33,536 bases of DNA from a virus. Below, piece after piece: positions 12,844-26,780 of the stretch. Under the pieces are notes generated by a model. The model did no database searches and had not been told where the DNA came from. It saw nothing but the letters and a program-made list of their open reading frames with translations. The stretch spans positions 1 to 33,536 of the IMG/VR virus record IMGVR_UViG_3300042154_002051. The stretch is one strand, 5' to 3'. Each line of letters opens with the position of its first letter. The first letter of the stretch is position 1. The translations under genes were made by a program, and so were the position numbers.

Positions 12844-12872
12844 AATATACGAAAAATAACTGAATTAACCAA
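12844..12872 (-). promoter_or_regulatory. Promoter TTGGTT-N17-TATATT for the 58-aa/4-TM gene pair
   Basis: TTGGTT (12872-12867) overlaps the last codons and stop of the Hsp20 gene; after 17 bases follows TATATT (12849-12844) with the same TTTTCGTATATTAGA extension as the promoter at 11485-11513. The expected start near 12837 falls inside the 5' arm of the terminator hairpin, so only new transcripts would lack a full hairpin. Confidence 0.7.
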
Positions 12873-13242
12873 CTTTCGGGGTTAATTTTTTTGGTTTGGA
12901 CTCTTCTTTTCTTTCAATGGTAATTAAGAGAATACCATTTTTAATTTCAGCTTTTGCTTTTCTACCATCAAAGTTTTTACCTACGGCAATTCTTTCTTCA
13001 ATGTCCGAAACTAATTGATTGAACGGATTTTCTTTGTCCTCTTTTAATTTTTTTGCTTTGATTTCAATTTTGTCTTCAAAACAATCAATTTCAATATCTT
13101 TTGGTTCATGTCCTAATACTGATAATGCAATTGATGCAGATTCGTCCTTTATGTCTACTGCAAATTTGTTTGGAACATACGTTGTTGTTTTTGGTTCATT
13201 AAAGAACTCTTCAAATAATTTACTGTAATCAATCATGTACAT
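12865..13242 (-). CDS. Small heat-shock protein, Hsp20/alpha-crystallin family
   Basis: A 125-aa chaperone. The alpha-crystallin domain runs from about residue 25 to 113: FAVDIKDESASIALSVLGHE (consensus 'v.eded.y.i.ve.PGf'), KDIEIDCFEDKIEIKAKKLK, and the C-terminal hallmark AEIKNGILLITIER (98-111; family 'A.l.nGvL.i.lpk'). A short N-terminus and the C-terminal KPKKLTPKVG complete it. The family oligomerises and holds unfolding proteins. Hsp20 genes occur in many T4-like phages and cyanophages and may help capsid or tail assembly. Two in-frame ATGs (13242 and 13236) are possible starts. A promoter/terminator pair follows it. Confidence 0.92.
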   Translation of the reverse strand: MYMIDYSKLFEEFFNEPKTTTYVPNKFAVDIKDESASIALSVLGHEPKDIEIDCFEDKIEIKAKKLKEDKENPFNQLVSDIEERIAVGKNFDGRKAKAEIKNGILLITIERKEESKPKKLTPKVG

Positions 13243-13317: not shown

Positions 13318-13965
13318 TTACATTATGTTATCTTGTCTTTCAATGATTGTAGACATATGGTCTGCCCAATGCATAATAAATTGTAACTTGTAAACCAATT
13401 GTTTCTTTAAGTCGTGACCGGCTAAATACTTTTGATTATCTTCATCATACATACCATCGGTAAGCTTGATTGCGAAGTACTCTTTCTCATTATACTGAAT
13501 ACCATAGTGATTCAATGTAAAAAAAGTTCTATCAGTTAGGGTCATATATGGAATATTCTCATTACGAACAAATAAAGTTCCGTATTTCTTTTGAGACCAT
13601 TCTTCCTGATTTGGTAAATAATGTAGTTCACCTTTAACACCCAATTTTCCTAAATCGTGATGTAGACAACTAAATATCAATTCTTCTTCGGTAAAATCTA
13701 TCTCTCCACCTTGTGATACGAACAGGTCTCTCATTTTAAGAGCGTTCTTACATACATTAAAGATGTGGTCTATATACCCACCTATATATGCGTTATGATA
13801 GTGTTTTGAGCCAGATGCAGCGGATAGTGTGAGGTTAACACCCAATTCTTCTTCGGAATACATATGGAGTAATTTCTCCAATCTCTCACCTTTGAAATAT
13901 TTTTTGATTATTGCAATAAACTTATCGTAGTTTTGCTTTAATTCTTGTTCTGTCTTTTGTTTCAT
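13318..13965 (-). CDS. HD-domain phosphohydrolase
   Basis: A 215-aa protein with an HD signature: His67 in GGYIDHIFNVCKNALKMRD, then the HHDLGK motif at 102-107 (metal-binding His103-Asp104), and HWADHMSTIIERQD near the C-terminus, which supplies a later Asp. The HD family hydrolyses phosphate esters of nucleotides and cyclic nucleotides using metal ions; substrate cannot be read here. It could adjust nucleotide pools or cut a signalling nucleotide. The gene stands alone behind its own promoter (13996-14024), with a 30-base leader. Confidence 0.85.
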   Translation of the reverse strand: MKQKTEQELKQNYDKFIAIIKKYFKGERLEKLLHMYSEEELGVNLTLSAASGSKHYHNAYIGGYIDHIFNVCKNALKMRDLFVSQGGEIDFTEEELIFSCLHHDLGKLGVKGELHYLPNQEEWSQKKYGTLFVRNENIPYMTLTDRTFFTLNHYGIQYNEKEYFAIKLTDGMYDEDNQKYLAGHDLKKQLVYKLQFIMHWADHMSTIIERQDNIM

Positions 13966-14080: not shown

Positions 14081-14689
14081 TTATTCTATTTTTTTGTAAG
14101 TTATACCATCGTTCGCTATATCCGATTTGATTAACTCTCTATTTTGTATAAAGTAATGTTTATTAAGTGATTTTATATTAAAAATTTTATTATTGTGTAA
14201 GTATTCAAACTCATAATCCAATGTTCTTTTCCAACCATTCTTTATAAACCAATTAAATAATTTAATTGCCGATTTGGGGTTAACGCAATAACAATCACAA
14301 TATGGTTGAAATTCGTAATTTTCTCCACCTTTTAGTATTAATACATCAAAATCGTCATTTATTAAATCTCTCCATAAGAAGTCAATCGGGTGATTTATAT
14401 GAATGTCATCTTCAAATATGAAAAATGGAACATCTTCTTTATAACATTCCAACCAGACCATCATATGAGATAAATTGCAGGATATTACCCCCCATTGATT
14501 AATATCCCATTCCCAATAATCTGCATCTTTAAATAATGAATTGATAAGTGAGTTATTTCTCAAAACACCCCTATAATCAATAGATTCAAAAATTTCAATA
14601 TCTATACCCAATTTATTTGAAATTGATTCAATATTTTTTCGTCTTATGGCCGATGATTGTCTGTTTATAGCTTTAAATTTATAACTCAT
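14081..14689 (-). CDS. Glycosyltransferase, GT25-like
   Basis: A 202-aa protein resembling GT25 (LPS beta-1,4-galactosyltransferase-type) enzymes: the N-terminal 'iN..r...Rr' with KAINRQSSAIRRKNIESISN, the GVISCNLSHMMVWLEC segment (family 'GeiacalSH...w') and the metal/sugar-binding FFIFEDDIHI (EDD 93-95). It likely transfers a hexose to a glycan acceptor. It is the last gene of the glycan operon; its start overlaps the upstream gene by 11 bases. Below it lies a stretch of about 115 bases without a gene that holds the next promoter. Acceptor and donor are unknown. Confidence 0.82.
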   Translation of the reverse strand: MSYKFKAINRQSSAIRRKNIESISNKLGIDIEIFESIDYRGVLRNNSLINSLFKDADYWEWDINQWGVISCNLSHMMVWLECYKEDVPFFIFEDDIHINHPIDFLWRDLINDDFDVLILKGGENYEFQPYCDCYCVNPKSAIKLFNWFIKNGWKRTLDYEFEYLHNNKIFNIKSLNKHYFIQNRELIKSDIANDGITYKKIE

Positions 14690-15350
14690 ATAATAATTTC
14701 CAACCTTTTTTTATTTGATTATCAAAAAATTCATACATGTTTTCTCTAAAATTATTTGGGTTGGTTTCATACAGGGAGACTTCGTCAACTCCATATTTCC
14801 ATCCTTCTAAACTACCCCATAGGTTTTTATCATTTTCTGGATGAGGTGGTACGAATGTAGGAATACCTTGTTTTTGTAGTTGATATGAAAAGTTCATGTC
14901 CTCACCACATTGAAAGTATTTTGTATTTGGTATTTCTGACCAATAATATTTTAACCACTCTTTTTTAAAGAACCAGTTGTGAACAACATAATCAACTTGA
15001 ATAGTTTCTTCATTTGGTTTACACCAACCTATTCTATTGTAATTATCTTTATAATGTGTGTTTGAATTAAATTGGTATCCACACGTACCATAAAGACCTT
15101 CTTTTATTTGAAACTCATTATAACAATTCTCTAACCATTTTATTCCAGGTATGGTATCATCATCAATAACACAAACAAAATCCGATTTAGCATTCAACGC
15201 CATAGAAAATCTTGCCCACACTCCTAAATTTTGTAATGAGTTATCACAAACTAAAATCTCATCTGGTTTTAATGTTTGGTTTCTTAAAGATATAAACTGA
15301 TTCTCAAGTAAATGAGGTCTTTTATACTTTGTTAATATTACAGTTATCAT
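14679..15350 (-). CDS. Glycosyltransferase family 2-like
   Basis: A 223-aa GT-A enzyme. MITVILTKYKRPHLLENQFI and SLRNQTLKPDEILVCDNS form the family 2 nucleotide-binding start, VCVIDDDTIPGIKWLENC has the DDD metal motif (63-65), and QCGEDMNFSYQLQKQGIPTF carries the acceptor-side ED. The likely reaction is transfer of a sugar from a nucleotide-sugar donor to a growing glycan. It overlaps its upstream partner by 29 bases and its downstream partner by 11, so translation is probably coupled. Specificity cannot be read. Confidence 0.82.
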   Translation of the reverse strand: MITVILTKYKRPHLLENQFISLRNQTLKPDEILVCDNSLQNLGVWARFSMALNAKSDFVCVIDDDTIPGIKWLENCYNEFQIKEGLYGTCGYQFNSNTHYKDNYNRIGWCKPNEETIQVDYVVHNWFFKKEWLKYYWSEIPNTKYFQCGEDMNFSYQLQKQGIPTFVPPHPENDKNLWGSLEGWKYGVDEVSLYETNPNNFRENMYEFFDNQIKKGWKLLYEL

Positions 15351-16671
15351 TTAATAAATTTAAATTTTTTGGGCCTGAAATGTCTTTGTCTTTTTGTTCT
15401 GGATGTTCCAAATGAACAATAATACCATGCAGTCTTTTAAATTTAAGGCCTTTATTAATTAATCTCATATGCCTCTCATCATCCTCTCTACCCCAACCTT
15501 CAAAATCTTCATTATTCATTCCCACATTTAAAAATTTTTCCCTATCAATAATAAAAATACCACCAACACATTTAGTACCCCAGGCCTCCCTCAAAGTATA
15601 ATCTGGTTCATTGAAACAATCGGTATATGGTAATGAGTAATCTACTTCATTCATTATTATTTCTTTTACTGCTATGTATATATTATAAGAATTTAATAAG
15701 ATAATATCAGCATCAATAACACAAATAATTTTTTTATTTGATATTTTAATACCATCATTAATACATTTGGATTGATTGTGAGGTAAGTCCTTTTTAATAA
15801 AAATATAATTAAAATCATCTATTTGAATAGTTTGATTATTTCCCTGTTCCGAAACTATAAATGTGGAATCTTTAAAATTTTTTTTATAATATTCAATTAC
15901 CCTTAGTAAATTATCTTTTCTTTTTTCGGTGTCGTATCTATATGGAAAAATAAAATCAACTTCATTCATAATACATTTCAATCTATCATCGTAGGTAAAA
16001 TTAAATGCTCTTAGATGTTGTATAATTTTACTAAATTCGGTGTTAATTTCATAATGTAACCCTGATAATAAACAAGACATAATAATAGAGTACCCTTCTT
16101 GGTCTCCAAATCTTTCATTGTTTACTAATATATCTGATTTGTGTTTTATTTCGGTAAAATTAATATAATTCTTAAAAAATTTGTTAACAATTACTTCATC
16201 AATGTTTTCAAAATTAAAAACATAAATGTCTTCCCATACCGATGTTAAATTTTCAAAATTAAAATTATATTTCTTCAATTCTTGTCTATAATATTTGTAA
16301 TTTTTTTGAGATAAAAAAATCTCCATATTTTCAGGAAAACCCCTTCTAGTAAATGTAAATCCAGTGTTAAATTCTATTTTTTTAAAATCAATAAAAAATT
16401 GTTTATTAAAAATTAAAATATCGGAATCTATGTATAATATTTTTTTGTACCCCAAATCATAGATATTTTTTACTGCATCTATTTTATGATGATATGAATG
16501 TGGTTGTGAATGGTATTCTATTACTTTAACATTTTCTACCTCATAAAAATCAGGTTTATCAGTGTATACAAATAAATCAAATTGGTTTGTGTCTATACTA
16601 TTTAATAGTATCAACGATAGTTTATGGAACTCTTCACTTCCATATGCACATGTTAAAAAGGCTGATTTCAT
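15322..16671 (-). CDS. Two-domain glycosyltransferase (GT8-like plus GT2/GT7-like)
   Basis: A 449-aa protein with two GT-A-like halves. The first (1-250) has SAFLTCAYGSEEFHKLSLIL, a Tyr-rich segment and KKILYIDSDILIFN with a DSD motif (82-84), as in nucleotide-diphospho-sugar transferases. The second (about 255-449) restarts the fold: KDNLLRVIEYYKKNF, VIDADIILLN (DAD 320-322), CVGGIFIIDREKFLNVG and FEGWGREDDERHMRLI, the WGxEDD motif of chondroitin-polymerase and beta-4-galactosyltransferase-like enzymes. Two active sites in one chain suggest two successive sugar additions or alternating polymerisation. The first half lacks the later His/Asp motif I would expect in GT8, so its activity is less certain. 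Confidence 0.78.
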   Translation of the reverse strand: MKSAFLTCAYGSEEFHKLSLILLNSIDTNQFDLFVYTDKPDFYEVENVKVIEYHSQPHSYHHKIDAVKNIYDLGYKKILYIDSDILIFNKQFFIDFKKIEFNTGFTFTRRGFPENMEIFLSQKNYKYYRQELKKYNFNFENLTSVWEDIYVFNFENIDEVIVNKFFKNYINFTEIKHKSDILVNNERFGDQEGYSIIMSCLLSGLHYEINTEFSKIIQHLRAFNFTYDDRLKCIMNEVDFIFPYRYDTEKRKDNLLRVIEYYKKNFKDSTFIVSEQGNNQTIQIDDFNYIFIKKDLPHNQSKCINDGIKISNKKIICVIDADIILLNSYNIYIAVKEIIMNEVDYSLPYTDCFNEPDYTLREAWGTKCVGGIFIIDREKFLNVGMNNEDFEGWGREDDERHMRLINKGLKFKRLHGIIVHLEHPEQKDKDISGPKNLNLLNDNCNINKV

Positions 16672-16683
16672 TATTATTGTTTA

Positions 16684-17634
16684 TTAAAATGTGTGACTAT
16701 TCCAATTATATGAACCATATGTAGATTTGATTGACTCATGCATTTGTATATCTAATTGCTTTAATAGATTAACTAACAATATTCTATAATATAAATGCCA
16801 TCTGTATCCTGATAAATGTATAATGTCTGATGACTTAAAATCATTCAATAATTCATCATAAGCTTTTTTGTTTAAATCACCATATCCTTCATTATTAGTT
16901 TTACCTCCTTTAATTAAATCTCCAAAAACAAATAAATCTTCAAATCTATTCGTTTCCAATAGATAATTTATTTGAATAAATTGTTCTAAGACTGTTGGTA
17001 AATCCTTTATTTGATTTAATTTTTCATAATTTTTTAGTAAAAATTCTTTTGTTTTTTTAAATGATAATATCAATTCATCATTATTACAACCAAATATAGA
17101 ACAATTGTATGCAGTTAGTGGATTAAAATTATCTAACATTTCATCATCTATAACCTTACAAACCTCTGAAAATATCTTTATATAGAATGCATACTGATTA
17201 TTCAGCTGATTACCATATGGATTGCATGCCGGTTCTTTAAAAGAAAATAAAATATCTTTATCAACCTTATCAAATATGATATCATTGTTTATAAAGAAAT
17301 CATGGTCTATATGAATAAATGGTTCGGTTTGTTCTGCAGCCACAAATATTTTAAACATCACATTTTTATGAGAAAATCCGGTATTTTGTTTTTCTATCAC
17401 ATCATAACAATTTGATATATCAACCAATTTATCAAAATATTCGGTACCTTTAAAAAATTTAATAATTTCTTTGTTAGTATATAAGTTTATTGATTTATAT
17501 TTAAATTTTGATTTAAATAATTTAACTGATACACATAAACAATACAAATCTATTAAATAGAAATCTCTATTACACTCCCAATCTATTTCAGGTGGTACAT
17601 ATGTGTATATTATGTTTTTATCCGATGTATCCAT
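16684..17634 (-). CDS. GT8-like glycosyltransferase-fold protein
   Basis: A 316-aa protein. LYCLCVSVKLFKSKFKYKSI and NLYTNKEIIKFF resemble the start of nucleotide-sugar transferases, and EPFIHIDHDFFINNDIIFD places a DxD-type motif (Asp110-His-Asp112) where GT8 enzymes have it. Later parts (ACNPYGNQLNNQYAFY, AYNCSIFGCNNDELI) resemble the acceptor-side segments of phage and bacterial proteins of unknown specificity. The C-terminal helix ends SSDIIHLSGYRWHLYYRI. It overlaps the UDP-sugar dehydrogenase upstream by 17 bases. Activity is inferred from motif and context. Confidence 0.68.
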   Translation of the reverse strand: MDTSDKNIIYTYVPPEIDWECNRDFYLIDLYCLCVSVKLFKSKFKYKSINLYTNKEIIKFFKGTEYFDKLVDISNCYDVIEKQNTGFSHKNVMFKIFVAAEQTEPFIHIDHDFFINNDIIFDKVDKDILFSFKEPACNPYGNQLNNQYAFYIKIFSEVCKVIDDEMLDNFNPLTAYNCSIFGCNNDELILSFKKTKEFLLKNYEKLNQIKDLPTVLEQFIQINYLLETNRFEDLFVFGDLIKGGKTNNEGYGDLNKKAYDELLNDFKSSDIIHLSGYRWHLYYRILLVNLLKQLDIQMHESIKSTYGSYNWNSHTF

Positions 17635-18772
17635 AATAATATATTTTTATATCATTGTTTTTATACTCTCTCCATACATCCAATACAATACTATTTGTTG
17701 GTAATTGAATGTTATTATATTTTCCCATGTGACCTAACAAATATATTGCCGGATACAATGTGGTATCAAATTCAACTTCTTTACCCAATTGATTAACATA
17801 ATATGAAGTTAAAATTGTAGTAGACCCTTCTAAATAGTCTACATCTGGTTTATAACTTTTACCTAAAATAACAATTGGTAAATTGTATTCATTTGATAAT
17901 TCTACCAATCGTTTTGCTATATTTTCAGCTTGGACTTCTCTAGCTCTCATTATAGCATCAAATATATCATAACCTAAGTTATATTCTCTGGCCATCCATC
18001 GTAGTGCAATATTGTCTCTTGGATGACATCCACCACCATCTCCCATTCCTGCTTTCATATAAGCAGAGCTAACAATTCTTTTTGTACTTCGTTCTAATGC
18101 ACCCGTGATAGTATCGGTATTCATATTACCATTCTTTTCAGCAACATCTTGTATCATATTTACCAATGCTACTTTTGTTGAAATAAATGTATTATAGAAT
18201 ATCTTTATAGCTTCGGCATCATCCCATGTACCAATTTCATATCTAACACCACTTGTAATAAATGTTTTATAAAACTCTATTAAAAGTTTAGCATCACCGG
18301 TATTACTACCATCTTCAGTTCCTATTATTATCATTTCAGGATTAACCATATCCCATTTTACCGTTCCCATAGCTATTAGGTATGGATTGTATATGAATCT
18401 ATAATTTTTTACCAATGGTATAAATTCTCTTCTAATGGTACCTGGTAGTACTGTTGATATTAAAACAACCAATTGTTCTTTGCTAGTATGGTTGTTAATT
18501 TCATTTAATATATCTTTTACTATTGAATAATCAAAATCCTTAGGTTCTAAATGAGATGTTGGATATCTACCATCGTAATCCTTATGATGCGGTGTTGGTA
18601 CTGCTACAAAAATTATTTGTTTATTAAAACACACATCTTTTATCGTTTTAACCATTTTAAAATTTTTAGGTACAATATTATTTACATCGTATCCTTCAAC
18701 ATAATGATGTTCGGCCATAACCTCAGAAGACTCTTTACCCAACTTGCCTACTCCTATAAATCCTATTTTCAT
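17618..18772 (-). CDS. UDP-glucose/GDP-mannose dehydrogenase family protein
   Basis: A 384-aa NAD-dependent sugar-nucleotide dehydrogenase. The N-terminus has the Rossmann GFIGVGKLG motif and IIFVAVPTPH. The middle shows VVLISTVLPGTIRREFIPLV, NPYLIAMGTVKW and the helix AEAIKIFYNTFISTKVAL. The catalytic Cys lies in GDGGGCHPRDNIALRW, equivalent to 'GfGG.C.pkD'. The C-terminal UDP-binding part has IVILGKSYKPDVDYLEGS. It would oxidise a UDP- or GDP-sugar to its uronic acid for glycan assembly. It sits among glycosyltransferase genes and overlaps both neighbours, so it probably supplies a charged sugar to them. Its residues are intact. Confidence 0.9.
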   Translation of the reverse strand: MKIGFIGVGKLGKESSEVMAEHHYVEGYDVNNIVPKNFKMVKTIKDVCFNKQIIFVAVPTPHHKDYDGRYPTSHLEPKDFDYSIVKDILNEINNHTSKEQLVVLISTVLPGTIRREFIPLVKNYRFIYNPYLIAMGTVKWDMVNPEMIIIGTEDGSNTGDAKLLIEFYKTFITSGVRYEIGTWDDAEAIKIFYNTFISTKVALVNMIQDVAEKNGNMNTDTITGALERSTKRIVSSAYMKAGMGDGGGCHPRDNIALRWMAREYNLGYDIFDAIMRAREVQAENIAKRLVELSNEYNLPIVILGKSYKPDVDYLEGSTTILTSYYVNQLGKEVEFDTTLYPAIYLLGHMGKYNNIQLPTNSIVLDVWREYKNNDIKIYYYGYIG

Positions 18773-20223
18773 ATTAATTTTTTATTAGTTATAGTTATTT
18801 GATTATTAATATCCGATGTAAGTAATTTGAATAAATTTAAAGTATCGGTATCCGATAACATATGATTAAAATTATGTATTAATACTTCTTCCATCTCTTG
18901 TGTTATTTTAAAACATTCATCTAAACTCCAACTAGATATTTTTTCTAGTATAGTAACTATTTTTTCCAATCTTTTAGAAAATTCTATCTCTTCATCATAA
19001 CTCTCATCCCACCATTTATCAAATGTTTTGAATCCCATAGATTGTAACATTTTAATAGAATTTGGATTACCAAATAAAATAAATGGCTGAGCTCCAAATA
19101 TTGGTTTATAGATTTTTTCTGAAAAGAATATAGAGTCAGTATCAATTAACGATTCGGATACTATATTAACAAACGATTCCGTATGTGCTTTTTTATTAAA
19201 TGTACCTGCTTTATTATTTTCTAAATCCGGTTCATCATAAATCGTATGTTTTGTTGAATCATAGTTTTCAAAAAAAGATACTATTCTATCTTTAGAATAT
19301 ATGTAGTCATTATCTATAAATGAACGCATTAACATGTGGTATTCAAGTGGATTACCATTATCAACTCTTCCTAATGTGGTAATTGATGTATTTTTTAATT
19401 TATCATTTGACTTAAACTCTCCAAATAAAGCAATTCTATGTAATTTTGGTACTCTATTGAAATTCAAAAAATGACGAACTTTATTAGTATTTCTATTTGA
19501 ATTTAAACAATTTTCAAACACATCTCGCATTGTTTGCTTAGTATGTGGGTTTAATTTATGGCCGTGATGAAACCAAATACTATTTCCGAAATATGAATAT
19601 GGATATATTAAGAATGAATCGGCAATAACACCATCTTTGACCAACCTATTGTATTTTTCTTTGGATATCATATTTGAAGTTATTACCACCACCGATTCTT
19701 TTGTAAGATTGTATTTTTTGCACAAACCATCTATCCATATGAAATTATCAACTCGTTGGCCGAAGAATCCTTCTGTGGGTTGTATGAATACCAATTTACA
19801 ATATCCATTATGTATAGCTTCAATCAATAAATGATTTAATTCTATTGTTTTATAATTATTAAATAAATCATTATTGTACATTATGATTGGATAAATAAAG
19901 GATTCCTTTTTAGAATAAAATTCCTCCAAAGTTCCTTTTCTAAATGTATCATAAGTGTTATCCAATATATTTTCAATATTTTGACTTGCAAATTGGAATA
20001 ACTCATGTCTAATATAACCACTATCATCCGATTTAATTGTATATGGAAACTTTATACCTAATTTTTTTTCGGTTTCTTCTAGTGGTATGGATGTTATCGT
20101 ATGCCAAGGATGTATATCATAGTTAGCTACATTTGATGTTGCATACAATGGGTTACCAGTTTCATCATAAACTAATATTTTATTATAAGCTACATTTATT
20201 TTGATTGATTTTATATTATGCAT
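18769..20223 (-). CDS. Putative glycosyltransferase with a GT10-like C-terminal donor-binding region
   Basis: A 484-aa protein. The C-terminal third carries SIFFSEKIYKPIFGAQPFIL, GNPNSIKMLQSMGFKTFDKW and DESYDEEIE, matching the pattern 'teK.ykpl...pFi..G....l..lr..GFkTF...idEsYd' seen in fucosyltransferase-like (GT10) proteins and many phage or bacterial hypothetical proteins. The N-terminal part has mixed strands and helices with no other motif. The N-terminal MHNIKSIKINVAYNKILVYD overlaps the LamG-type gene by 8 bases. A fucosyl- or related transferase role fits the operon. The N-terminal domain may bind acceptor. Moderately confident in the fold; low for substrate. Confidence 0.62.
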   Translation of the reverse strand: MHNIKSIKINVAYNKILVYDETGNPLYATSNVANYDIHPWHTITSIPLEETEKKLGIKFPYTIKSDDSGYIRHELFQFASQNIENILDNTYDTFRKGTLEEFYSKKESFIYPIIMYNNDLFNNYKTIELNHLLIEAIHNGYCKLVFIQPTEGFFGQRVDNFIWIDGLCKKYNLTKESVVVITSNMISKEKYNRLVKDGVIADSFLIYPYSYFGNSIWFHHGHKLNPHTKQTMRDVFENCLNSNRNTNKVRHFLNFNRVPKLHRIALFGEFKSNDKLKNTSITTLGRVDNGNPLEYHMLMRSFIDNDYIYSKDRIVSFFENYDSTKHTIYDEPDLENNKAGTFNKKAHTESFVNIVSESLIDTDSIFFSEKIYKPIFGAQPFILFGNPNSIKMLQSMGFKTFDKWWDESYDEEIEFSKRLEKIVTILEKISSWSLDECFKITQEMEEVLIHNFNHMLSDTDTLNLFKLLTSDINNQITITNKKLI

Positions 20224-20950
20224 TTTTTATTGTTTGTATGTATATGTGATTGTTATTACCCGTATAATCAAATATTTTAAATTTAGTAATTTTTTCAAAG
20301 TCATATAAACCCAATAGTCCGTATTTATTTGAATTTACATATTCATCATATTCGTTTAACTCTATTAAATATTTCTCTTTAATATTTTCTACTATCTCAT
20401 TTGTTAATATTTTTTCAGAAAGTATTGTGTATTTAAAATCAATATCGTATGTAGTTTCTGCATCAAATTGATTTCTACCCAATAGTATTTGTGAATTATC
20501 GTAATCATTAAAGAATTCGGCATCCACATTAATTTCAAATTTAAATTCATTATTTAAATAATATTTGATAACCGAACTATCGGATGAATATACTACCATT
20601 ATTTCATAATCCAATCCGAACTCAAAATTAAAATAAACACCAGTTCTATCTACTACATCTTTATCATTAACTTTTAATGTATAGTTTGTAAAGAATAAAT
20701 GAGAATCTACAATGTTATTTTCGGAATCCGTATATGAATGTGGGTCAAAACTTATTGAACAAACAAATGGAATTTTCCAAAATATAACAATGGGTTCATT
20801 GTTGTATGAATCTAATTTGTTTACACTAAATTTTGTATAGATTGTAAAATCATTTTTACCAAATATTTTTTTACATATTTCTCCTTTTTCCAATCCATAC
20901 ATTTTAAGAATTGGCCATAGAACCAAATATTCATTTCTATTTGTTATCAT
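20216..20950 (-). CDS. LamG/concanavalin-like lectin-fold protein
   Basis: A 244-aa protein with a LamG-type layout: FTIYTKFSVNKLDSYNNEPI, a beta-rich core, then DYEIMVVYSSDSSVIKYYLN, NNEFKFEIN, QILLGRNQFDAETTYDIDFK, an inter-strand helix (LTNEIVENIKEKYLIEL) and LYDFEKITKFKIFDYTGNN, the closing 'W.f.eg.g..v.D.sGn..hg' form of these jelly rolls. Such domains bind glycans or fold around them. It sits between the radical SAM gene and the GT10-like gene, overlapping each by 4-8 bases. It has no signal peptide, so it probably acts in the cytoplasm with the transferases, perhaps as a substrate-binding partner or as the glycosylated target. Confidence 0.65.
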   Translation of the reverse strand: MITNRNEYLVLWPILKMYGLEKGEICKKIFGKNDFTIYTKFSVNKLDSYNNEPIVIFWKIPFVCSISFDPHSYTDSENNIVDSHLFFTNYTLKVNDKDVVDRTGVYFNFEFGLDYEIMVVYSSDSSVIKYYLNNEFKFEINVDAEFFNDYDNSQILLGRNQFDAETTYDIDFKYTILSEKILTNEIVENIKEKYLIELNEYDEYVNSNKYGLLGLYDFEKITKFKIFDYTGNNNHIYIQTIKNA

Positions 20951-22332
20951 ATTTTACTTTTTATTTTATGGTAAAATTCTTCCATTTCTGGAAATGTTTT
21001 TAAAAAATTAGTGCCTCTTCTTAAATCGTGTTCATCTACGAATTTTATAAAATCTATTCTATTTTGATTTAAATTATCATCCTCCGACAATGACCAATCG
21101 TATATTCTTTTAATTTTTTGAACTTCTATATCATTAAATCCCATATTATCTCCATCGTAGTTTTCAACCGAATTATAGACTACAAACTCTGCTTGTTTTC
21201 TTATTAGTTCTTTGTGTTCTAAATCCAATATCTTAACTGTTTGATGTGGTGGGTATCTTAAATACGATGCATCCACCGGTGCAGTTGTTAACCAATATCT
21301 ATCGGGATTCTTATGTTCAATTCTTAAATCTAATACATTTTTTAAAAATGTTCTAAATGAAAAAACACTTAATGCATTATATGTTGTCATAAATACAACA
21401 GTAACTTTTGGAACTTTTTCTAAAATTTTATTTACATTATCCCAGAATCTATTAAATTCTAAACCATGCCTAATATATTCTGCCTGTGCACCCCAACCAT
21501 CCAATGATGTATATATTATCATTTCATTCACCAAACCTTTATCTGTGATTATTTGTAATTTTTCTATCAATTTGTTTATTAAAGAATCAGGTACACCCAA
21601 ATTTGAATTTATTGATAGGTTTAATTTTTTATTTGGTAATGGGTGTTGTATAATATAATCCAATACATCCCAAGTATCTTTTGATAAAAGTGGTTCACCT
21701 CCTGTAATTCTAAATGTGTGCAAGTCTTTGTATAAATCAGGCCACCATTCCCAAAAGGCTTTTACATATGGATTGTGTTCCGAATGTTTATATGGCATTT
21801 TACCTTCGGATTTAATCCAATCTAATTGGCCGAATTCGGTTGATGTTGGATATTTTCCATATCTTTCTATTTCCTCCATCCATTGTGATGAAAACATCGG
21901 GCCACAATATGAACATTTAAAATTACAAGTATTACTAAAAGATACTTCTACATACTTTGGATTATAATTTTCTCTATGGTCTATATTTTTAATTTCATTA
22001 AAATGTTCCCAAGACCAGGGTTCTTCTGATTTAAATATTCTATCGGATAACATATTGGAGTTATCTTCTACATTCCAACAATAATTACATTCACTAGGAC
22101 GTTTACCATTTAACATTTCCTTCCTAGCTCTTTTTTTCTCTTGTGTGTTATGTAATGCCGTTGGGTTTCTATTTAATTCCGTTAATGGTATTTTATGTGG
22201 AGATGGGTGATGGCAACTATGTGTTAGGCCATTATGTAAATGCATTGTAACCTGTGTCCATTTTGCCAAACAAAACCCACAACCTACTTTATTTAATTCT
22301 TCCTTAACTTCTTCTAATTTGTTTTTACTCAT
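20947..22332 (-). CDS. Radical SAM protein with N-terminal extra Cys cluster (twitch-type)
   Basis: A 461-aa radical SAM enzyme. The [4Fe-4S] motif is Cys136-x3-Cys140-x2-Cys143 (SFSNTCNFKCSYCGP), followed by a GGEPL motif at 211-215 (TFRITGGEPLLSKDTWD) and the expected strand NLSINSN near residue 240. Upstream of this core are five Cys (18, 21, 40, 82, 85; CGFC, HSCHH, ECNYC), which could hold a second iron-sulfur cluster as in SPASM/twitch enzymes, but placed before the core. It would make a 5'-deoxyadenosyl radical to modify a peptide or sugar. It overlaps neighbours by 4 bases each. Substrate unknown; the glycan-operon context points to a sugar or a glycosylated protein. Confidence 0.85.
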   Translation of the reverse strand: MSKNKLEEVKEELNKVGCGFCLAKWTQVTMHLHNGLTHSCHHPSPHKIPLTELNRNPTALHNTQEKKRARKEMLNGKRPSECNYCWNVEDNSNMLSDRIFKSEEPWSWEHFNEIKNIDHRENYNPKYVEVSFSNTCNFKCSYCGPMFSSQWMEEIERYGKYPTSTEFGQLDWIKSEGKMPYKHSEHNPYVKAFWEWWPDLYKDLHTFRITGGEPLLSKDTWDVLDYIIQHPLPNKKLNLSINSNLGVPDSLINKLIEKLQIITDKGLVNEMIIYTSLDGWGAQAEYIRHGLEFNRFWDNVNKILEKVPKVTVVFMTTYNALSVFSFRTFLKNVLDLRIEHKNPDRYWLTTAPVDASYLRYPPHQTVKILDLEHKELIRKQAEFVVYNSVENYDGDNMGFNDIEVQKIKRIYDWSLSEDDNLNQNRIDFIKFVDEHDLRRGTNFLKTFPEMEEFYHKIKSKI

Positions 22333-23684
22333 ATTCCAACATTTATTTGTAATGTATTGTTTTCTTTAATTTTACTATTTTCTACAAAATATAAATCACT
22401 CAATCCATCTTTTTGAGATAACATTGGGTCGGTGGATACTTCATTTGAAAATCTCAATTGATTCCACCTTGTTTCTTGGTGTTTCCATTTATTATTAACA
22501 AATCCATTATTTTCGTGATATAATGAAATAAATTTGGAATTTCTTCTATATGGTATTTTAACTATTTTATAAGGTGATATTTTTTTATTTACAATTTCAC
22601 AATTAATAATTTGGCCATCGTTTTTATTTCCTGATAAATCTTTTAATTTGTTTCTTTCTATTTCGTTGGTATTAAAGTGTACAACAGAATCTTTTATTTC
22701 TTTGTAATCCATTTCTATGATGTTTTTAATATCATCTTCATTCATTACTTTATTAAATACCATAAACGAATCAATATAACCCTTAAAATAATTTTCATCA
22801 CCCTTACGATGTGGAGACCCCATACCTAAATAAAAATATGGTTCTTTATTATAATTGTAAAGATTATCATATTCAATGGTATCTACCAAATTTGCATCTT
22901 GATAAAAATTTATTTTTTTGTTTTTACTATCAATTGTTATTGTTATAGTTGTTTTATAATTTGTTTTCATTTCGGAAGTCAAATACAATATTTCTTTATT
23001 TTTATTAAATAATAGAAAATTATATCTTTTGAATGAATTATATGATATACTTACATCATATCCTGGAATACTAAAAACCGAAAATGTATCACTATCTTTT
23101 TTATGATTATAAACTATATCATCGGGAAAAAAAGAAACTGATATAGTTAAATCTTTTGTAAAATCAATTTTATTTTTTACTTTTACATATGAGTTTATTC
23201 CATTAAATTTTAAAGAAGTTTTTGCAATTGGACTATTATATAATTTTAATCTATCCAATTTAATATCCTTTCTTTTACATCTTAATAACAAATCATCATC
23301 TTCAAATCCCCAACCCCAATATTTGTTAGAGTATCCATTTATTTTTTCAAAAGCTTTAGTGGGAAACAAAGTTACACCACCAAAATATTCATCAAATGTT
23401 TTTTCTGCCAAATGAATTGGTATATCAGAATATGAATAATCAACATCAATTGGTATCATATCTACATCGTGAAAAACAACATAGTCACATTTTAATTTTT
23501 TAGCATACTTAAAACCTATATTCAACAAAGTTCCTCTATTGAATAGTTTATCGTTATTTTGTTCAACTATTATAATTCTATAATCAATTTTGGTATTATC
23601 TAAATATTTTTGAATCTCTTGTTTAAATAACATTAGTTGTAAACTCCGATTTCTATATGGTACTATAATTCCCAACCTATGCAT
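22329..23684 (-). CDS. Beta-4-galactosyltransferase (GT7)-like enzyme with an inserted LamG domain
   Basis: A 451-aa protein. Residues 1-150 show every landmark of beta-4-galactosyltransferases: VPYRNR (8-13), LFNRGTLLNIGFKYAKK (48-), FHDVDMIP (71-78; DVD metal motif), YFGGVTLFPTKAFEKINGYS and NKYWGWGFEDDDLLLRC (121-136). A complete LamG domain then follows, opening with SLKFNGINSYVKVKNKIDF (157) and closing with YFKGYIDSFMVFNKVMNEDD; its sandwich ends near residue 360 at DLSGNKNDG. The last 80 residues (KHQETRWNQLRFSN, KDGLSDLYFV, INVGI) look like the GT7 C-terminal tail. So LamG appears inserted inside the transferase. It overlaps the genes on both sides by 4-8 bases. Confidence 0.82.
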   Translation of the reverse strand: MHRLGIIVPYRNRSLQLMLFKQEIQKYLDNTKIDYRIIIVEQNNDKLFNRGTLLNIGFKYAKKLKCDYVVFHDVDMIPIDVDYSYSDIPIHLAEKTFDEYFGGVTLFPTKAFEKINGYSNKYWGWGFEDDDLLLRCKRKDIKLDRLKLYNSPIAKTSLKFNGINSYVKVKNKIDFTKDLTISVSFFPDDIVYNHKKDSDTFSVFSIPGYDVSISYNSFKRYNFLLFNKNKEILYLTSEMKTNYKTTITITIDSKNKKINFYQDANLVDTIEYDNLYNYNKEPYFYLGMGSPHRKGDENYFKGYIDSFMVFNKVMNEDDIKNIIEMDYKEIKDSVVHFNTNEIERNKLKDLSGNKNDGQIINCEIVNKKISPYKIVKIPYRRNSKFISLYHENNGFVNNKWKHQETRWNQLRFSNEVSTDPMLSQKDGLSDLYFVENSKIKENNTLQINVGI

Positions 23685-23853
23685 CTTCCGGCTTTATTGT
23701 TTTATGCCACTCATGTAGATAAAATTGTATTCTATCACTCCAATCTTGTTTATCTATATCTTCAAACCAAATTGTAAGTGCATCTAATGAATTTGCAATT
23801 TTCTCCAAAGCTTTAACTTTTTTTTCTTCTAATTTTAATTCTTGTTCTGTCAT
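23677..23853 (-). CDS. Small helical protein in the glycan operon (58 aa)
   Basis: A 58-aa protein from the ATG at 23853: MTEQELKLEEKKVKALEKIA, NSLDALTIWFEDIDKQ, then DRIQFYLHEWHKTIKPEDA. A longer frame from 23889 is open but would overlap the upstream gene by 37 bases, whereas TAATG at 23855-23851 gives textbook translational coupling; I choose that start. It is helical with no enzyme motif. Its position between two transferase genes suggests a partner or scaffold. Function unknown. Confidence 0.68.
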   Translation of the reverse strand: MTEQELKLEEKKVKALEKIANSLDALTIWFEDIDKQDWSDRIQFYLHEWHKTIKPEDA

Positions 23854-24701
23854 TATATTGATATTATTTTGTTTAATAATTCTTTCCATTGTGAATAACC
23901 ACCATAATCACCACCTATATTCTCAAATCCATATCTTGTATCGTTTAAGTCAAATTTAAATCCAATCTTTCTTAATTCGGTATACATTTGACGATATTCA
24001 TGTGAGTACGCATATTCTTTGTTTATACTTGCAACATCTCTAATTCTATCTATACAGGTACTATCCCATTTAAAATGATGAACTTGTACATTGTATTTGT
24101 TTATAGGTGCAATTAGAGGATGTGACCAACCCTGCCATCTCCAAGTACTATGGTCGTCTATCTTTGCATAATGTTGTCCTGGTAAGAGTTCTACACTACC
24201 TTTCATTATACAAATCTTATTTGGGTTTGCTCCACTTAAAGGATGTCTAAAGAAACCTGCAATTGGAAATTGTTGAAATATATTAACTCCATCCAATAGT
24301 TCACTAAAACCACCATCTTCTCCTATTCTATCTATGAATCCACCTCTAACCATTTGCCAACCATTCCACTCACAATCTGAAATTATTTTGTTTAAGTCTT
24401 GTGAATATATGTGAAACTCATCGTCATCGGAAACTACCCACCAATCATTAGGAAATAATTTTTTAGTATCATTATATAGTTTAGTTACCTTTTCCCAATT
24501 ATACTTTTGACTACGATATCTTTTAACTATTATTGCAGTTGGAAATTCATCTACTATCTCTTTAACCTTATCATATGTACTTTCACCATCCCACTCATAT
24601 ACCACCACAAACATTTCGTCTACTACATTCTTATAATGATTTAACATATGTCTTAAAGTATTGGTTCTACTACCTGTAACTGTAACTAATCTTAATTTCA
24701 T
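23853..24701 (-). CDS. GT-A glycosyltransferase (GT2/GT92-like)
   Basis: A 282-aa protein. The start MKLRLVTVTGSRTNTLRHML and NHYKNVVDEMFVVVYEWDGE match 'nE..ylreWl.yh...ld.iyiyD.' family 92/2-type sequences. NDWWVVSDDDEFHIYSQDLN carries the DDDE metal motif (92-95). Later segments SGANPNKICIMKGSVELLPG and KYNVQVHHFKWDSTCIDRIR give the acceptor-side His and Trp. It should transfer a sugar to a glycan. It overlaps the methyltransferase upstream by 4 bases and shares a TAATG junction downstream. Confidence 0.8.
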   Translation of the reverse strand: MKLRLVTVTGSRTNTLRHMLNHYKNVVDEMFVVVYEWDGESTYDKVKEIVDEFPTAIIVKRYRSQKYNWEKVTKLYNDTKKLFPNDWWVVSDDDEFHIYSQDLNKIISDCEWNGWQMVRGGFIDRIGEDGGFSELLDGVNIFQQFPIAGFFRHPLSGANPNKICIMKGSVELLPGQHYAKIDDHSTWRWQGWSHPLIAPINKYNVQVHHFKWDSTCIDRIRDVASINKEYAYSHEYRQMYTELRKIGFKFDLNDTRYGFENIGGDYGGYSQWKELLNKIISI

Positions 24702-25423
24702 TTTTTTCTTATTAGGGTTAGGCCTGTTGAGGCGGGTTTGTTTTTAATAATTCCAAAGTTAAACATATTAAATATTTCAAATTTATCTCTATCTATTTCG
24801 TTTACTAATTGTGCAGGGCCAGTCCAATCAATGTGAAATGGTTTAGCTTCTTCGGTTACTATAAAATGATTTTCGTAATTTGTATCTGTATCGTGAATTG
24901 ATATAATACCATTTGGAGACATTATAGTAGAATATAGTTCAAAGTCTTCTTTTACATTTTCGTAGGAATGACCTGCATCAATGTGTAGGTAATCAATCTT
25001 AATGTCCTGCAATACAAAGAAATTATGAAATGCATTAGATGTAGTCTCTTTTATAAATCTTGGTGAAAAATTAGAACGAAAGTAACTCATATCATCACTC
25101 CAATTAACTTCACCACCTATACCATTCATTGCATCTACTATATATGTTACTCCTATATCACCCCAATTTAAATCATCATTACCTTCAAATATCTTTTGAC
25201 TATGTAAGTCTTTACGAGCTTGGGTCATAATACGCGGGATGAATCCACCACCACTACCTAAACAAACACATACCTTTGACCTCATATATTGAATTAGGGA
25301 GTAGATAACCAAACCATCTCCTAAATGTAAGTCAGTTGCACCATGTGACCAACGATATGGAACTACACCCTCTTTTCCATTATTTGTTATACAATTCTTT
25401 ATGAAATCTATATTTGTTATCAT
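24698..25423 (-). CDS. Class I SAM-dependent methyltransferase (Methyltransf_24-like)
   Basis: About 241 aa. The SAM-binding loop is KVCVCLGSGGGFIPRIM (51-67; the LGSGGG motif I), and DYLHIDAGHSYENVKEDFEL with MSPNGIISIHDTD is the diagnostic Methyltransf_24 segment (family 'ihiDg.H.y..v..Dl...w..l.pGG.l..hD'). The open frame reaches 25459 with a TTG codon, but that would sit exactly on the promoter -35, so the ATG at 25423 (MITNIDFIKN) is the better start. That ATG lies eight bases below the -10 element, so the transcript may be nearly leaderless. As the first gene of the 11-kb operon, it likely O- or N-methylates a sugar. Confidence 0.82.
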   Translation of the reverse strand: MITNIDFIKNCITNNGKEGVVPYRWSHGATDLHLGDGLVIYSLIQYMRSKVCVCLGSGGGFIPRIMTQARKDLHSQKIFEGNDDLNWGDIGVTYIVDAMNGIGGEVNWSDDMSYFRSNFSPRFIKETTSNAFHNFFVLQDIKIDYLHIDAGHSYENVKEDFELYSTIMSPNGIISIHDTDTNYENHFIVTEEAKPFHIDWTGPAQLVNEIDRDKFEIFNMFNFGIIKNKPASTGLTLIRKK

Positions 25424-25430
25424 ATCATTG

Positions 25431-25459
25431 AATATACGAATAATATCCGATAATACCAA
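25431..25459 (-). promoter_or_regulatory. Promoter TTGGTA-N17-TATATT for the glycan operon
   Basis: TTGGTA (25459-25454), 17 bases, TATATT (25436-25431) on the minus strand. The predicted start falls at about 25424, at the methyltransferase ATG. It is the only promoter I can see for the 11 genes down to 14081, and a G-run tract (25473-25489) lies just upstream. Confidence 0.78.
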
Positions 25460-25472
25460 ATAAAAATAAAAT

Positions 25473-25489
25473 GGGGAGGGGGTTGGGGG
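25473..25489 (+). other. G-run tract upstream of the glycan promoter
   Basis: The plus strand reads GGGG A GGGGG TT GGGGG within 17 bases, in a genome that is strongly A/T-rich. Three runs of four or five G could form a bulged or two-tetrad G-quadruplex on the plus strand, or a C-run on the transcribed strand. It lies 14 bases upstream of the -35 element at 25454-25459. No known element is recognised. Confidence 0.4.
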
Positions 25490-25553
25490 AGAAAGTCGTT
25501 TTTTAAAGAAATTTTTAGTATCTCTATTGATAGTAACTCATTTAAATCAAATA

Positions 25554-25721
25554 TTAGGTTATACACATATTCTTGCACACATTCCTTTTAAATCGTTTTA
25601 ACCACCATATGGGAAAATATATCAACCAATACATCGTAGTACCCATTAAAGCAAAGGAAAGTACCAACAACATCATTATAAGGCGTATAAACAGGATTAA
25701 CTTTTGAATTATGACTTGCAT
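25554..25721 (-). CDS. Small single-span membrane protein (55 aa)
   Basis: From the ATG at 25721 the frame reads MQVIIQKLILFIRLIMMLLV, then LSFALMGTTMYWLIYFPIWW, LKRFKRNVCKNMCIT, stop at 25554. Residues about 5-40 are hydrophobic, one or two membrane spans, ending in Arg/Lys-rich residues, giving N-out orientation by the positive-inside rule. It starts 6 bases below the stop of the 350-aa gene, the spacing seen at other junctions here. It fills most of the gap to the glycan promoter, which otherwise holds only a G-run tract and the promoter. Family unknown. Confidence 0.7.
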   Translation of the reverse strand: MQVIIQKLILFIRLIMMLLVLSFALMGTTMYWLIYFPIWWLKRFKRNVCKNMCIT

Positions 25722-25727
25722 AATTAA

Positions 25728-26780
25728 TTATTTATCTTTTTTCTTTTTAATTTCTTGTTGTAGTTCTACTATTTTTGCAGCGAGATAAGTTTGATTTTGT
25801 TTATCGGAAGATTGACCTTGTTGTATTTTCTCTTCAATAGATTGTCGTTGTTCTTCAACTCTTCTCTTTACTTCTTCATTGGTTTGTGCGATATCATCTT
25901 CTAAATCTCTCTTAGTTTTTTCGGCTTCATCTTTGATAGTATTGATAGGATTAGTTTCAATAGATAGAGTATCACTACTTTGAGTTTGTCTAACACTATG
26001 ATTAGAACCTAAATCATCAGTATCAGTATCTGCAATGATATCTTCTATAATCAATCCATATCCATTAGGTGTAGGTATTTCTCCTTTAAAGAAAGTATCT
26101 TGAATTCTATTAAAATCGTTTTTAAGTAAGGTTAATTGTTCACCCAGTTCAATAAGAAAGGTTTGTAGTTTTAAAGGGTCAAAAATCGTCTTCTCTTGAT
26201 CGGTAACAGTTCTAATAGGTACAACGGTATAGTGTGATGCATTAGGATTGTTTTTAGTATCTACCATTTTAAAGTAATCTACGACTTCAAACTTATCGGA
26301 TGGTCTTCCACTTTCCTTATCTAATGTATAGTTAATTTGGTCTATTAATTTCTTTGGTATACCTTCTACTACTCCATTTTGTATATCATCTATATAAGAT
26401 ACATCTACAACACCTGCCTGTCTATTCTGAAATTCTCTACCATCTATAAGGGATTGTAGTTTGGTTACGTCCAATTCAATCATCTTAATTGTATTACCCA
26501 TTGTAACTACCTTATCCTTAATAGTTAACTTACCATTCTCTATTATATCGTAGTGTGGGTTATTAGAATCCTTTATATCACTAAGGGTTTGTGGTGAACA
26601 TAGATAATCTAATCCTATCTTTACTATAATACCATTTGTTTTAATAACGGGTTTAAGATTTGCAAGAGGTAGACCAACGGGTAAGAATATAGGTTTGATA
26701 TCTTTTGATGCAGATATCTTCCAATTAGTACCTTCTTTAGTGTATCTATCCGGATTTTGTGTTATGGGTTTAATACTCAT
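25728..26780 (-). CDS. Unassigned protein with C-terminal coiled coil (350 aa)
   Basis: A 350-aa soluble protein. The N-terminal about 240 residues are mixed alpha/beta (KPIFLPVGLPLANLKPVIKT, YKMVDTKNNPNASHYTVVPI), with a Thr/Asp-rich linker (IIADTDTDDLGSN), and a C-terminal highly charged helix of about 80 residues (RDLEDDIAQTNEEVKRRVEE, LAAKIVELQQEIKKKK). It overlaps the 100-aa gene upstream by 11 bases. The genes 25728-27851 form one cluster; the layout globular domain then coiled coil suits a virion or assembly protein. I recognise no family. Confidence 0.72.
   Translation of the reverse strand: MSIKPITQNPDRYTKEGTNWKISASKDIKPIFLPVGLPLANLKPVIKTNGIIVKIGLDYLCSPQTLSDIKDSNNPHYDIIENGKLTIKDKVVTMGNTIKMIELDVTKLQSLIDGREFQNRQAGVVDVSYIDDIQNGVVEGIPKKLIDQINYTLDKESGRPSDKFEVVDYFKMVDTKNNPNASHYTVVPIRTVTDQEKTIFDPLKLQTFLIELGEQLTLLKNDFNRIQDTFFKGEIPTPNGYGLIIEDIIADTDTDDLGSNHSVRQTQSSDTLSIETNPINTIKDEAEKTKRDLEDDIAQTNEEVKRRVEEQRQSIEEKIQQGQSSDKQNQTYLAAKIVELQQEIKKKKDK

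Follow-up and report, generated by a model that had tools for sequence, protein, structure and literature searches.

Glycans on the capsid and tail-tube subunits of mycobacteriophages were reportedly described by Freeman in 2023 (as cited in PMC12619734), so phages do glycosylate their own virions. To our knowledge, self-glycosylation of this kind is known from only a few isolates, such as mycobacteriophages, and we know of no conserved mycobacteriophage cassette that joins a radical SAM enzyme to a GT7 transferase with a nested LamG domain. A mycobacteriophage announcement that inferred capsid glycosylation offers a two-transferase picture (PMC11256854). The chlorovirus PBCV-1 makes its own capsid glycan, carried on its own structural protein, with mostly soluble, cytosolic glycosyltransferases and SAM methyltransferases (A064R, A061L; PMC9614988); it is a eukaryotic virus, and the excerpted account, with which we compare our locus by description only, mentions no radical SAM or LamG partner. 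Islands of phage glycosyltransferase and radical SAM genes have already been reported in pelagimyophages, T4-like phages of aquatic bacteria, where the hypervariable host recognition cluster holds tail fibres, glycosyltransferases, UDP-glucose 6-dehydrogenase and radical SAM cassettes (PMC7029224). The excerpt of that report presents these genes as a loose collection of O-chain auxiliary genes, with no mention of the conserved methyltransferase-GT2-70-aa-GT7(LamG)-radical SAM core reported here, which we set apart from it by description only.

The window is the whole 33,536-nucleotide stretch of IMG/VR record IMGVR_UViG_3300042154_002051. T4-like baseplate genes are present in it, together with the following features:

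25728..26780, minus strand: upstream flank, 350-aa protein without assigned function (orthologues in the relatives L126-L128)
24698..25423, minus strand: Methyltransf_24 SAM methyltransferase, core gene 1 (Pfam PF13578; start set by homology)
23853..24701, minus strand: GT2-type (GT-A) glycosyltransferase "GT2x", 282 aa, core gene 2 (annotated homologues, conserved residues)
23677..23889, minus strand: conserved 70-aa protein, core gene 3 (alignment, conserved position)
22329..23684, minus strand: GT7 protein (beta-1,4-galactosyltransferase fold) with nested LamG, core gene 4 (Pfam, B4GALT1, AF2)
22554..23228, minus strand: LamG/ConA-like domain nested in the GT7 protein at about residues 153-377 (Laminin_G_3, structure)
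20947..22332, minus strand: radical SAM protein with N-terminal twitch domain, core gene 5 (NF033640)
20216..20950, minus strand: standalone LamG-type protein, 244 aa, directly after the radical SAM gene (hhalign)
18769..20223, minus strand: GT-B glycosyltransferase, GT10-like, 484 aa, cargo (AF2 and PDB structure match)
17618..18772, minus strand: UDP-sugar (UDP-glucose type) 6-dehydrogenase, cargo (Pfam PF00984 and PF03721)
16684..17634, minus strand: DUF6734 protein, cargo, first read as GT8-like (PF20508, 35 bits)
15322..16671, minus strand: two-domain transferase, cargo (GT7C in the C-terminal half)
14679..15350, minus strand: GT2 glycosyltransferase, cargo (PF00535, 33 bits)
14081..14689, minus strand: GT25 glycosyltransferase, cargo (PF01755, 47 bits)
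13318..13965, minus strand: phosphohydrolase-like protein of the downstream flank, bordering the variable block (metal-dependent phosphohydrolase phrog_28876, E 5.6e-8)

The first-pass annotation had described eleven consecutive minus-strand genes, nearly all overlapping by 1-29 bases. The genes do lie where it placed them, from 14081 to about 25423, but they number twelve: the overlooked 70-aa gene (23677-23889) is among the most conserved of the cluster. Overlap was found at 10 of the 11 junctions, with a range of 4-37 bases, and the single exception is a 12-base gap at 16671/16684. Nearly all of its family calls were upheld by Pfam, NCBIfam and structure matching; Pfam confirmed Methyltransf_24, GT7N with GT7C and Laminin_G_3, radical SAM, UDPG_MGDP_dh, DUF6734, GT7C, GT2 and GT25. 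Altogether, seven cluster proteins have transferase families or folds, accompanied by the nucleotide-sugar dehydrogenase and the methyltransferase, and none of the twelve has a transmembrane segment. Shine-Dalgarno (SD) sequences precede only 1 of 35 gene starts, which is compatible with a Bacteroidota host without proving one.

A single strong promoter had also been proposed at 25431-25459, and this did not hold. The site scored only 9 of 12, stronger sites exist elsewhere in the region, and promoter-like sites of that kind numbered 108 versus 114 in shuffles. It lies 8 bases before ATG 25423, the start used by homologues, and thus leaves no room for a leader. A T4 late-promoter-like octamer was not enriched, and the Bacteroidota-type -33/-7 pattern gave 8 matches versus 3.5 expected, none of them in the correct orientation directly ahead of the cluster. 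Terminators, which might have split the cluster into unrelated units, were not found beyond chance.

The methyltransferase (PF13578, 44 bits) is open from TTG 25459, and its homologues begin at MITN, the ATG at 25423. It had a weak PDB match to the methyltransferase 6g7d (E 0.012), and its dN/dS of about 0.15 against L126 shows purifying selection. GT2x matched Glyco_tranf_2_4 below the Pfam cut-off; its homologues in Streptomyces plasmids are annotated GT2, and D92, D94 and E95 are invariant in its alignment. The radical SAM protein passed the curated cut-off of NF033640 (N_Twi_rSAM, NCBIfam; 356.6 bits against 170), with C136/C140/C143 and the twitch residues C21/C40/C82/C85 invariant and CxxxCxxC kept in 348 of 348 copies; its homologues stood at 57-63% in the best 80 viral loci listed, of 245 matching stretches. 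Searches of PDB sequences with the radical SAM and GT2x profiles gave no match. A viperin (pVip) assignment of the radical SAM protein was set aside, as the match spanned only residues 131-230 (23.6 bits) rather than the full length and the NCBIfam viperin model, which has a cut-off of 180 bits, scored 16.1 bits; a defence-system reading of the cluster was likewise dropped, the only PADLOC output being a weak partial viperin match common to radical SAM domains.

In the GT7 protein, GT7N and GT7C scored 74.7 and 67.1 bits, above the Pfam cut-off, and B4GALT1 was matched at E 2e-38 over residues 2-155 plus a C-terminal segment. The AF2 model (pLDDT 87.9) scored Z 25 (VIA) over residues 1..451, while its LamG portion (153-377; Laminin_G_3, 43 bits) aligned separately to lectins at Z 21, with pentraxins, PAPP-A and BACOVA_03559 among the structure matches. 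The features of the family are present, namely the DVD metal motif, WGWGxEDDD, the His and the C-terminal DGL segment, and the alignment invariants are D73/D75, W123, W125, G126, E128, D129, D131, H390, G427 and L428; H390 is presumably the B4GALT metal-ligand His. The protein thus shares fold, DxD, WGWGxEDDD and C-terminal segment with B4GALT1 and B4GALT7 but differs from them by a LamG of about 220 residues that separates the WGWGxEDDD region from the C-terminal strands. By profile and model, a LamG lectin domain is nested inside a GT7 catalytic domain of beta-1,4-galactosyltransferase fold, for which the activity typical of the family, moving Gal (or GalNAc) from UDP onto GlcNAc or Xyl, is predicted. 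In a BFVD structure search, the best 50 matches listed were GT7-only or LamG-only, and the nested architecture was not among them. The standalone LamG protein had no Pfam match and, as judged by hhalign (prob 95%, E 3.7e-8), is homologous to the nested one; 123 radical SAM-LamG adjacent pairs (82 LGb and 41 LGa) were counted.

Among the cargo, the 484-aa GT-B protein matched no Pfam family, GT10 included. Its AF2 model (pLDDT 84) was closest in the PDB to the GT10 fucosyltransferase 2nzw (Z 11.8), with T4 BGT, EXT1 and GT4 enzymes at 10-11; a profile match to beta-hemolysin (E 0.017) covered a short helical stretch only and was dismissed. The dehydrogenase matched the UDP-glucose dehydrogenase family phrog_9148 at 317 bits and TIGR03026 at 141 bits, below the cut-off of the latter. 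In the two-domain transferase, PF02709 covers residues 363-423 (49.7 bits), and the N-terminal half groups with phage genes of 244 aa that stand alone (cluster 47).

Recurrence of the gene order in other phages had been put forward as a check, and the core order does recur across uncultured viral loci. IMG/VR was scanned independently with the radical SAM protein, the methyltransferase and the 70-aa protein, giving 245-329 matching stretches each, and all three scans converged on one core with one gene order: methyltransferase, GT2-type transferase, 70-aa protein, GT7 and N-twitch radical SAM. GT2x was present in 80 of the 80 loci listed from the methyltransferase scan and 80 of the 80 from the small-protein scan, and the 70-aa gene sits between GT2x and GT7 in 76 of 80 independently scanned loci listed. 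The core spans phages whose capsids are only about 20% identical, SD-less and SD-using alike, and 34 of 50 cassette contigs carry gp23. Conservation of the core is far beyond chance. The description of the cluster as one coupled operon is correct only in part: downstream of these five conserved genes, the cargo differs even between close relatives. In L126-L128, the same site holds other genes or lacks the radical SAM gene; the 350-aa protein of the upstream flank has orthologues (34-55%) that likewise lie upstream of their methyltransferase, and the downstream flank protein, 66-89% identical, follows right after their own cargo. The GT-B gene is absent from L126, the closest relative, and cassettes elsewhere carry epimerases, an RmlC-like enzyme and nucleotidyltransferases. 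The cluster is a composite of a conserved core and exchangeable cargo between conserved flanks.

Searches of 50,697 deposited phage genomes by tblastn with four core proteins revealed no convincing homologue: the radical SAM protein, GT7, GT2x and also the GT-B protein had no match, and the methyltransferase aligned only over a 40-residue stretch, in Synechococcus phage S-SRM01. A near-DNA search of deposited phages gave no match. In GTDB, the full core occurred only in short, likely phage contigs of Flavobacteriales, Pelagibacterales and Gammaproteobacteria MAGs, and a cellular origin of the whole cassette was rejected. The claimed rarity of so large a set with a radical SAM enzyme thus holds for deposited phages but not for uncultured aquatic phages, in which such islands had been noted (PMC7029224).

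That the phage builds or edits a glycan is well supported by the seven transferases, the dehydrogenase, the methyltransferase and the T4-like genes. The target had been left open between virion proteins and host surface, and the evidence leans toward the former. In 27 of 39 contigs, versus 3.4 expected, the cassette lies at most 8 kb downstream, on the same strand, of a giant tail-fibre gene with an S74 chaperone, in a sample whose contigs are not mutually independent and may be incomplete. The frequent position just after a tail-fibre gene suggests that these phages decorate their own parts or, with lower probability, the host surface with a custom sugar chain. We see about an even chance that the cassette encodes a soluble, cytosolic glycan pathway whose targets are virion proteins, probably those of the fibre or baseplate. 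Nonetheless, the window and L126-L128 have no tail-fibre gene near the cassette, with upstream genes of 350 aa or shorter; the linkage could also mean no more than that both lie in a hypervariable region for host recognition, and phage transferases could borrow host undecaprenol and flippase.

The main rival is possible but clearly less probable: during infection, the locus would remodel glycans of the host surface (LPS O-chain, capsule or S-layer) and so keep out superinfecting phages. The authors of the pelagimyophage study argued for it, in the excerpt, for similar islands (PMC7029224), and the UDP-sugar dehydrogenase here, like the epimerases, RmlC-like enzyme and nucleotidyltransferases elsewhere, resembles O-antigen pathways. 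However, O-antigen and capsule loci keep a lipid-carrier phosphoglycosyltransferase and a flippase beside their glycosyltransferases, and phage O-antigen conversion (GtrA/GtrB/Gtr) uses the membrane protein GtrA. The flippase PF01943 and phosphoglycosyltransferases PF02397 and PF00953 were found in 0 of 50 cassette contigs, which may be fragments, as was GtrA (PF04138, 0 of 50), whereas these four families were detected in 7-13 of 14 control genomes. The lack of membrane proteins among the twelve points the same way, and a host-surface role alone leaves the tie to fibre genes unexplained.

A separate system for peptide or protein modification, made up of the radical SAM and LamG genes and placed by chance in a glycosyltransferase island, is improbable. 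Bdellovibrionota in GTDB carry the radical SAM gene alone, in chromosomal tandem arrays without glycosyltransferase or methyltransferase partners, and LamG genes follow it in many loci; yet the viral gene is coupled directly to GT7, with a median gap of -1 base in 135 cases, and the 70-aa protein, rejected as a RiPP precursor, has no Cys-rich, variable or core-peptide-like region in its alignment. Glycosylation of the phage's DNA or of some other small molecule in the cytosol, in the manner of the T4 alpha- and beta-glucosyltransferases on hydroxymethylcytosine, is very improbable: the GT-B protein has T4 BGT (Z 10.9) and AGT (Z 10.1) among its structural neighbours, but GT10 fucosyltransferases lie slightly above them, similar scores are reached by many unrelated GT-B enzymes, the GT-B gene is cargo missing from the closest relative, and we know of no LamG domain or GT7 enzyme in DNA glycosylation.

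If virion proteins are the target, the core (methyltransferase, GT2-type transferase, its 70-aa partner, LamG-nested GT7 and radical SAM enzyme) would build and modify a short glycan, and the exchangeable downstream genes, here the UDP-sugar dehydrogenase, GT-B/GT10-like, DUF6734, GT7C, GT2 and GT25 genes, would set its further sugars. The LamG domains may be binding sites for the growing glycan or for the protein that carries it, and the radical SAM enzyme may introduce a dehydrogenation-, epimerisation- or C-C-type change on sugar or acceptor. The glycan would be placed on tail-fibre or baseplate proteins before assembly, where it may change receptor binding or shield the particle. More specifically, and rather unlikely in its entirety, the cassette may be a virus-specific module spread by horizontal exchange, with giant tail fibres as the site of a methylated, radically edited glycan that is the joint product of the galactosyltransferase with its nested LamG and the twitch radical SAM enzyme; receptor binding would then be tuned through the glycan of the fibre as well as its protein sequence.

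The cassette is absent from the deposited phage genomes searched, and its five genes in fixed order are a marker for picking isolates in which fibre glycosylation can be tested, along with the role of twitch radical SAM enzymes in glycan pathways and the purpose of a lectin domain nested in a galactosyltransferase. If virion glycosylation is the true function, self-glycosylation would be common in abundant uncultured aquatic T4-like phages, by way of one conserved, exchangeable cassette.

Twelve consecutive minus-strand ORFs fill positions 14081 to 25459 of the window, which is itself a 33.5-kb virus record in IMG/VR. The first-pass annotation had recognized this cluster and counted eleven genes, overlooking a 70-aa gene; its family calls were mostly borne out by family searches. 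Ten of the 11 gene junctions overlap, by 4 to 37 bases, and the remaining one is a 12-base gap. The 484-aa and 244-aa proteins had no Pfam match, and structure comparison assigned the former a predicted GT-B fold, with GT10 fucosyltransferases ranking just above other GT-B enzymes. The strong promoter once placed at the cluster start did not hold up: it has only 9/12 matches, comparable sites are no more frequent in the region than in shuffles, and it sits just 8 bases from the ATG used as the start by homologues. The relevant features of the window are as follows.

3380-5395 and 5398-5835: T4-like baseplate wedge genes
10448-11083 and 12865-13242: genes for a peptide deformylase (phrog_2890) and an Hsp20 chaperone, separating the baseplate genes from the glycan cluster
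23677-23889, minus strand: overlooked 70-aa gene
25460-25727: about 270 bases without a good gene, before the methyltransferase gene; the plus strand has a G-rich run at about 25471-25487 (GGGGAGGGGGTTGGGGG), a potential G-quadruplex

Scans of IMG/VR recovered 245 stretches encoding the radical SAM (rSAM) protein, 329 matching the methyltransferase (MT) profile, and 257 matching the 70-aa protein profile; locus counts rest on the best 80 of each. Loci selected by rSAM (best 80 of 245) carried MT in 67/80, the GT2-type glycosyltransferase GT2x in 69/80, the 70-aa protein in 61/80, and GT7 in 78/80. MT-selected loci (best 80 of 329) had GT2x in 80/80, the 70-aa protein in 75/80, GT7 in 76/80, and rSAM in 66/80, while those selected by the 70-aa protein (best 80 of 257) had MT in 79/80, GT2x in 80/80, GT7 in 79/80, and rSAM in 69/80, with the order GT2x-70aa-GT7 kept in 76/80. 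Adjacent core genes overlap or almost touch (median gaps: MT-GT2x, −4 bases; 70aa-GT7, −8; GT7-rSAM, −1). At a 95% identity threshold, GT2x in the scanned loci splits into at least 132 lineages, and dN/dS between the window and its relative L126 was about 0.15. In tblastn searches of 50,697 deposited phage records, a collection that may omit records close to the window, rSAM, GT7, GT-B, and GT2x had no match, and MT gave nothing beyond one 40-residue stretch.

Contigs L126, L127, and L128 come from relatives of the window phage with flanking genes in common (upstream 350-aa gene, 34 to 55% identity; downstream phosphohydrolase-like gene, 66 to 89%). All three retain MT-GT2x-70aa at the same site, with MT and GT2x 73 to 93% identical, whereas their GT7 is just ~40% identical to that of the window. 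In L126, rSAM and the entire window cargo are missing; L127 combines rSAM with other genes, and two divergent rSAM genes occur in L128. Capsid and cassette similarity were only partially correlated (Mantel r, 0.29 to 0.75; 20 to 23 contigs with the capsid protein gp23). L005 and L184/L185 share 19% identity in gp23, yet 66% in MT and 58% in GT2x; conversely, certain pairs with 88 to 96% identical gp23 are a mere 56 to 67% identical in MT or GT2x. These mismatches indicate that the cassette, whole or in parts, moves between phages. An epimerase, RmlC-like, and TPP-binding E1-like trio, which suggests a modified-sugar pathway, recurs in many cassettes (e.g., L067, 15052-15693; L034, 5609-6193; L054, 9638-10609).

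A Shine-Dalgarno-like motif precedes 1/35 ATG genes in the window, which is compatible with a Bacteroidota-type host. The motif is almost unused in most carriers (104/2067 genes across viral loci) and present in 33 to 50% of genes in L035, L070, L080, L065, and L044; this contrast suggests that the carriers' hosts are not all of one type.

The profile of the 451-aa GT7 protein matched B4GALT1 over residues 2 to 155 (E = 2e-38), and its last 41 positions gave a second, weak match to the C-terminal segment of B4GALT1. An AlphaFold2 model (pLDDT, 87.9) aligned with B4GALT1/B4GALT7 across residues 1 to 451 (~204 aligned; Z, 25; rmsd, 1.9 to 2.1), and residues 153 to 377 gave a separate match to ConA-like lectins and pentraxins (Z, 18 to 22). 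Given this split alignment and the lectin match, the LamG domain is predicted to sit inside the GT7 catalytic domain, whose metal and acidic motif residues do not vary in the alignment. The 244-aa standalone protein encoded after rSAM is homologous to the nested LamG.

In rSAM, none of the seven expected cysteines (CxxxCxxC and four in the twitch domain) varies across 17 diverse homologues, and CxxxCxxC is retained in 348/348 copies. The twitch enzymes MoaA and BtrN have small-molecule substrates; by analogy, a sugar is a plausible rSAM substrate. Some phages (L003, L010, L021, and L023) carry tandem copies, with up to several consecutive paralogues following the core. Among GTDB genomes, this family occurs mostly on Bdellovibrionota chromosomes (41 to 47% identity), often in arrays, without GT or MT partners. 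Arrays of several rSAM genes without phage GT partners were seen on Bdellovibrionota contigs L092 and L105 and on contigs L118 and L122 of an unassigned bacterium. L106, a 335-kb contig assigned to Neomarinimicrobiota that may be a jumbo phage placed in a MAG during binning, has at 1-21356 tail-fibre-like genes (by eye), then rSAM-GT10-SGNH repeats and a UDP-sugar dehydrogenase.

Of 39 contigs that carry GT2x together with an S74-chaperone gene, 27 have GT2x on the same strand as the S74 gene and ≤8 kb downstream of it, versus 3.4 expected from random positions; because the contigs are related, the P value is optimistic. Family searches covered ten large proteins encoded upstream of the cassette: three matched S74 (two clearly, one slightly below the cut-off; PHROGs tail, tail-fibre, or minor-head), one is collagen-like, two have LamG, and the remainder are unassigned or glycine-rich. 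Unlike most other carriers, the window and L126 to L128 have no fibre gene near the cassette. Phage GT clusters near tail fibres, radical SAM cassettes included, are already described in PMC7029224. Within the open-access literature, the fixed core, its absence from deposited phage genomes, the nested LamG-GT7 enzyme, and exchange among distantly related T4-like phages appear to be new.

The main rival explanation is that the cassette remodels the host surface, as PMC7029224 proposes for pelagimyophage GT islands; this would require the host to supply a lipid carrier and flippase. Wzx-type flippase, phosphoglycosyltransferase (two families), and GtrA were found in 0/50 cassette contigs and in 7 to 13 of 14 control genomes, and 0/12 cluster proteins of the window have membrane segments. 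The data fit a soluble, cytosolic pathway that assembles a glycan on a protein synthesized within the same cell. We place roughly even confidence in virion-protein glycosylation by such a pathway. The closest working model is the chlorovirus PBCV-1, which, according to PMC9614988, makes the glycan of its own capsid with virus-encoded, mostly soluble GTs and methyltransferases. Under virion-protein glycosylation, the glycan would be added to phage proteins, most likely of the fibre or baseplate, prior to assembly.
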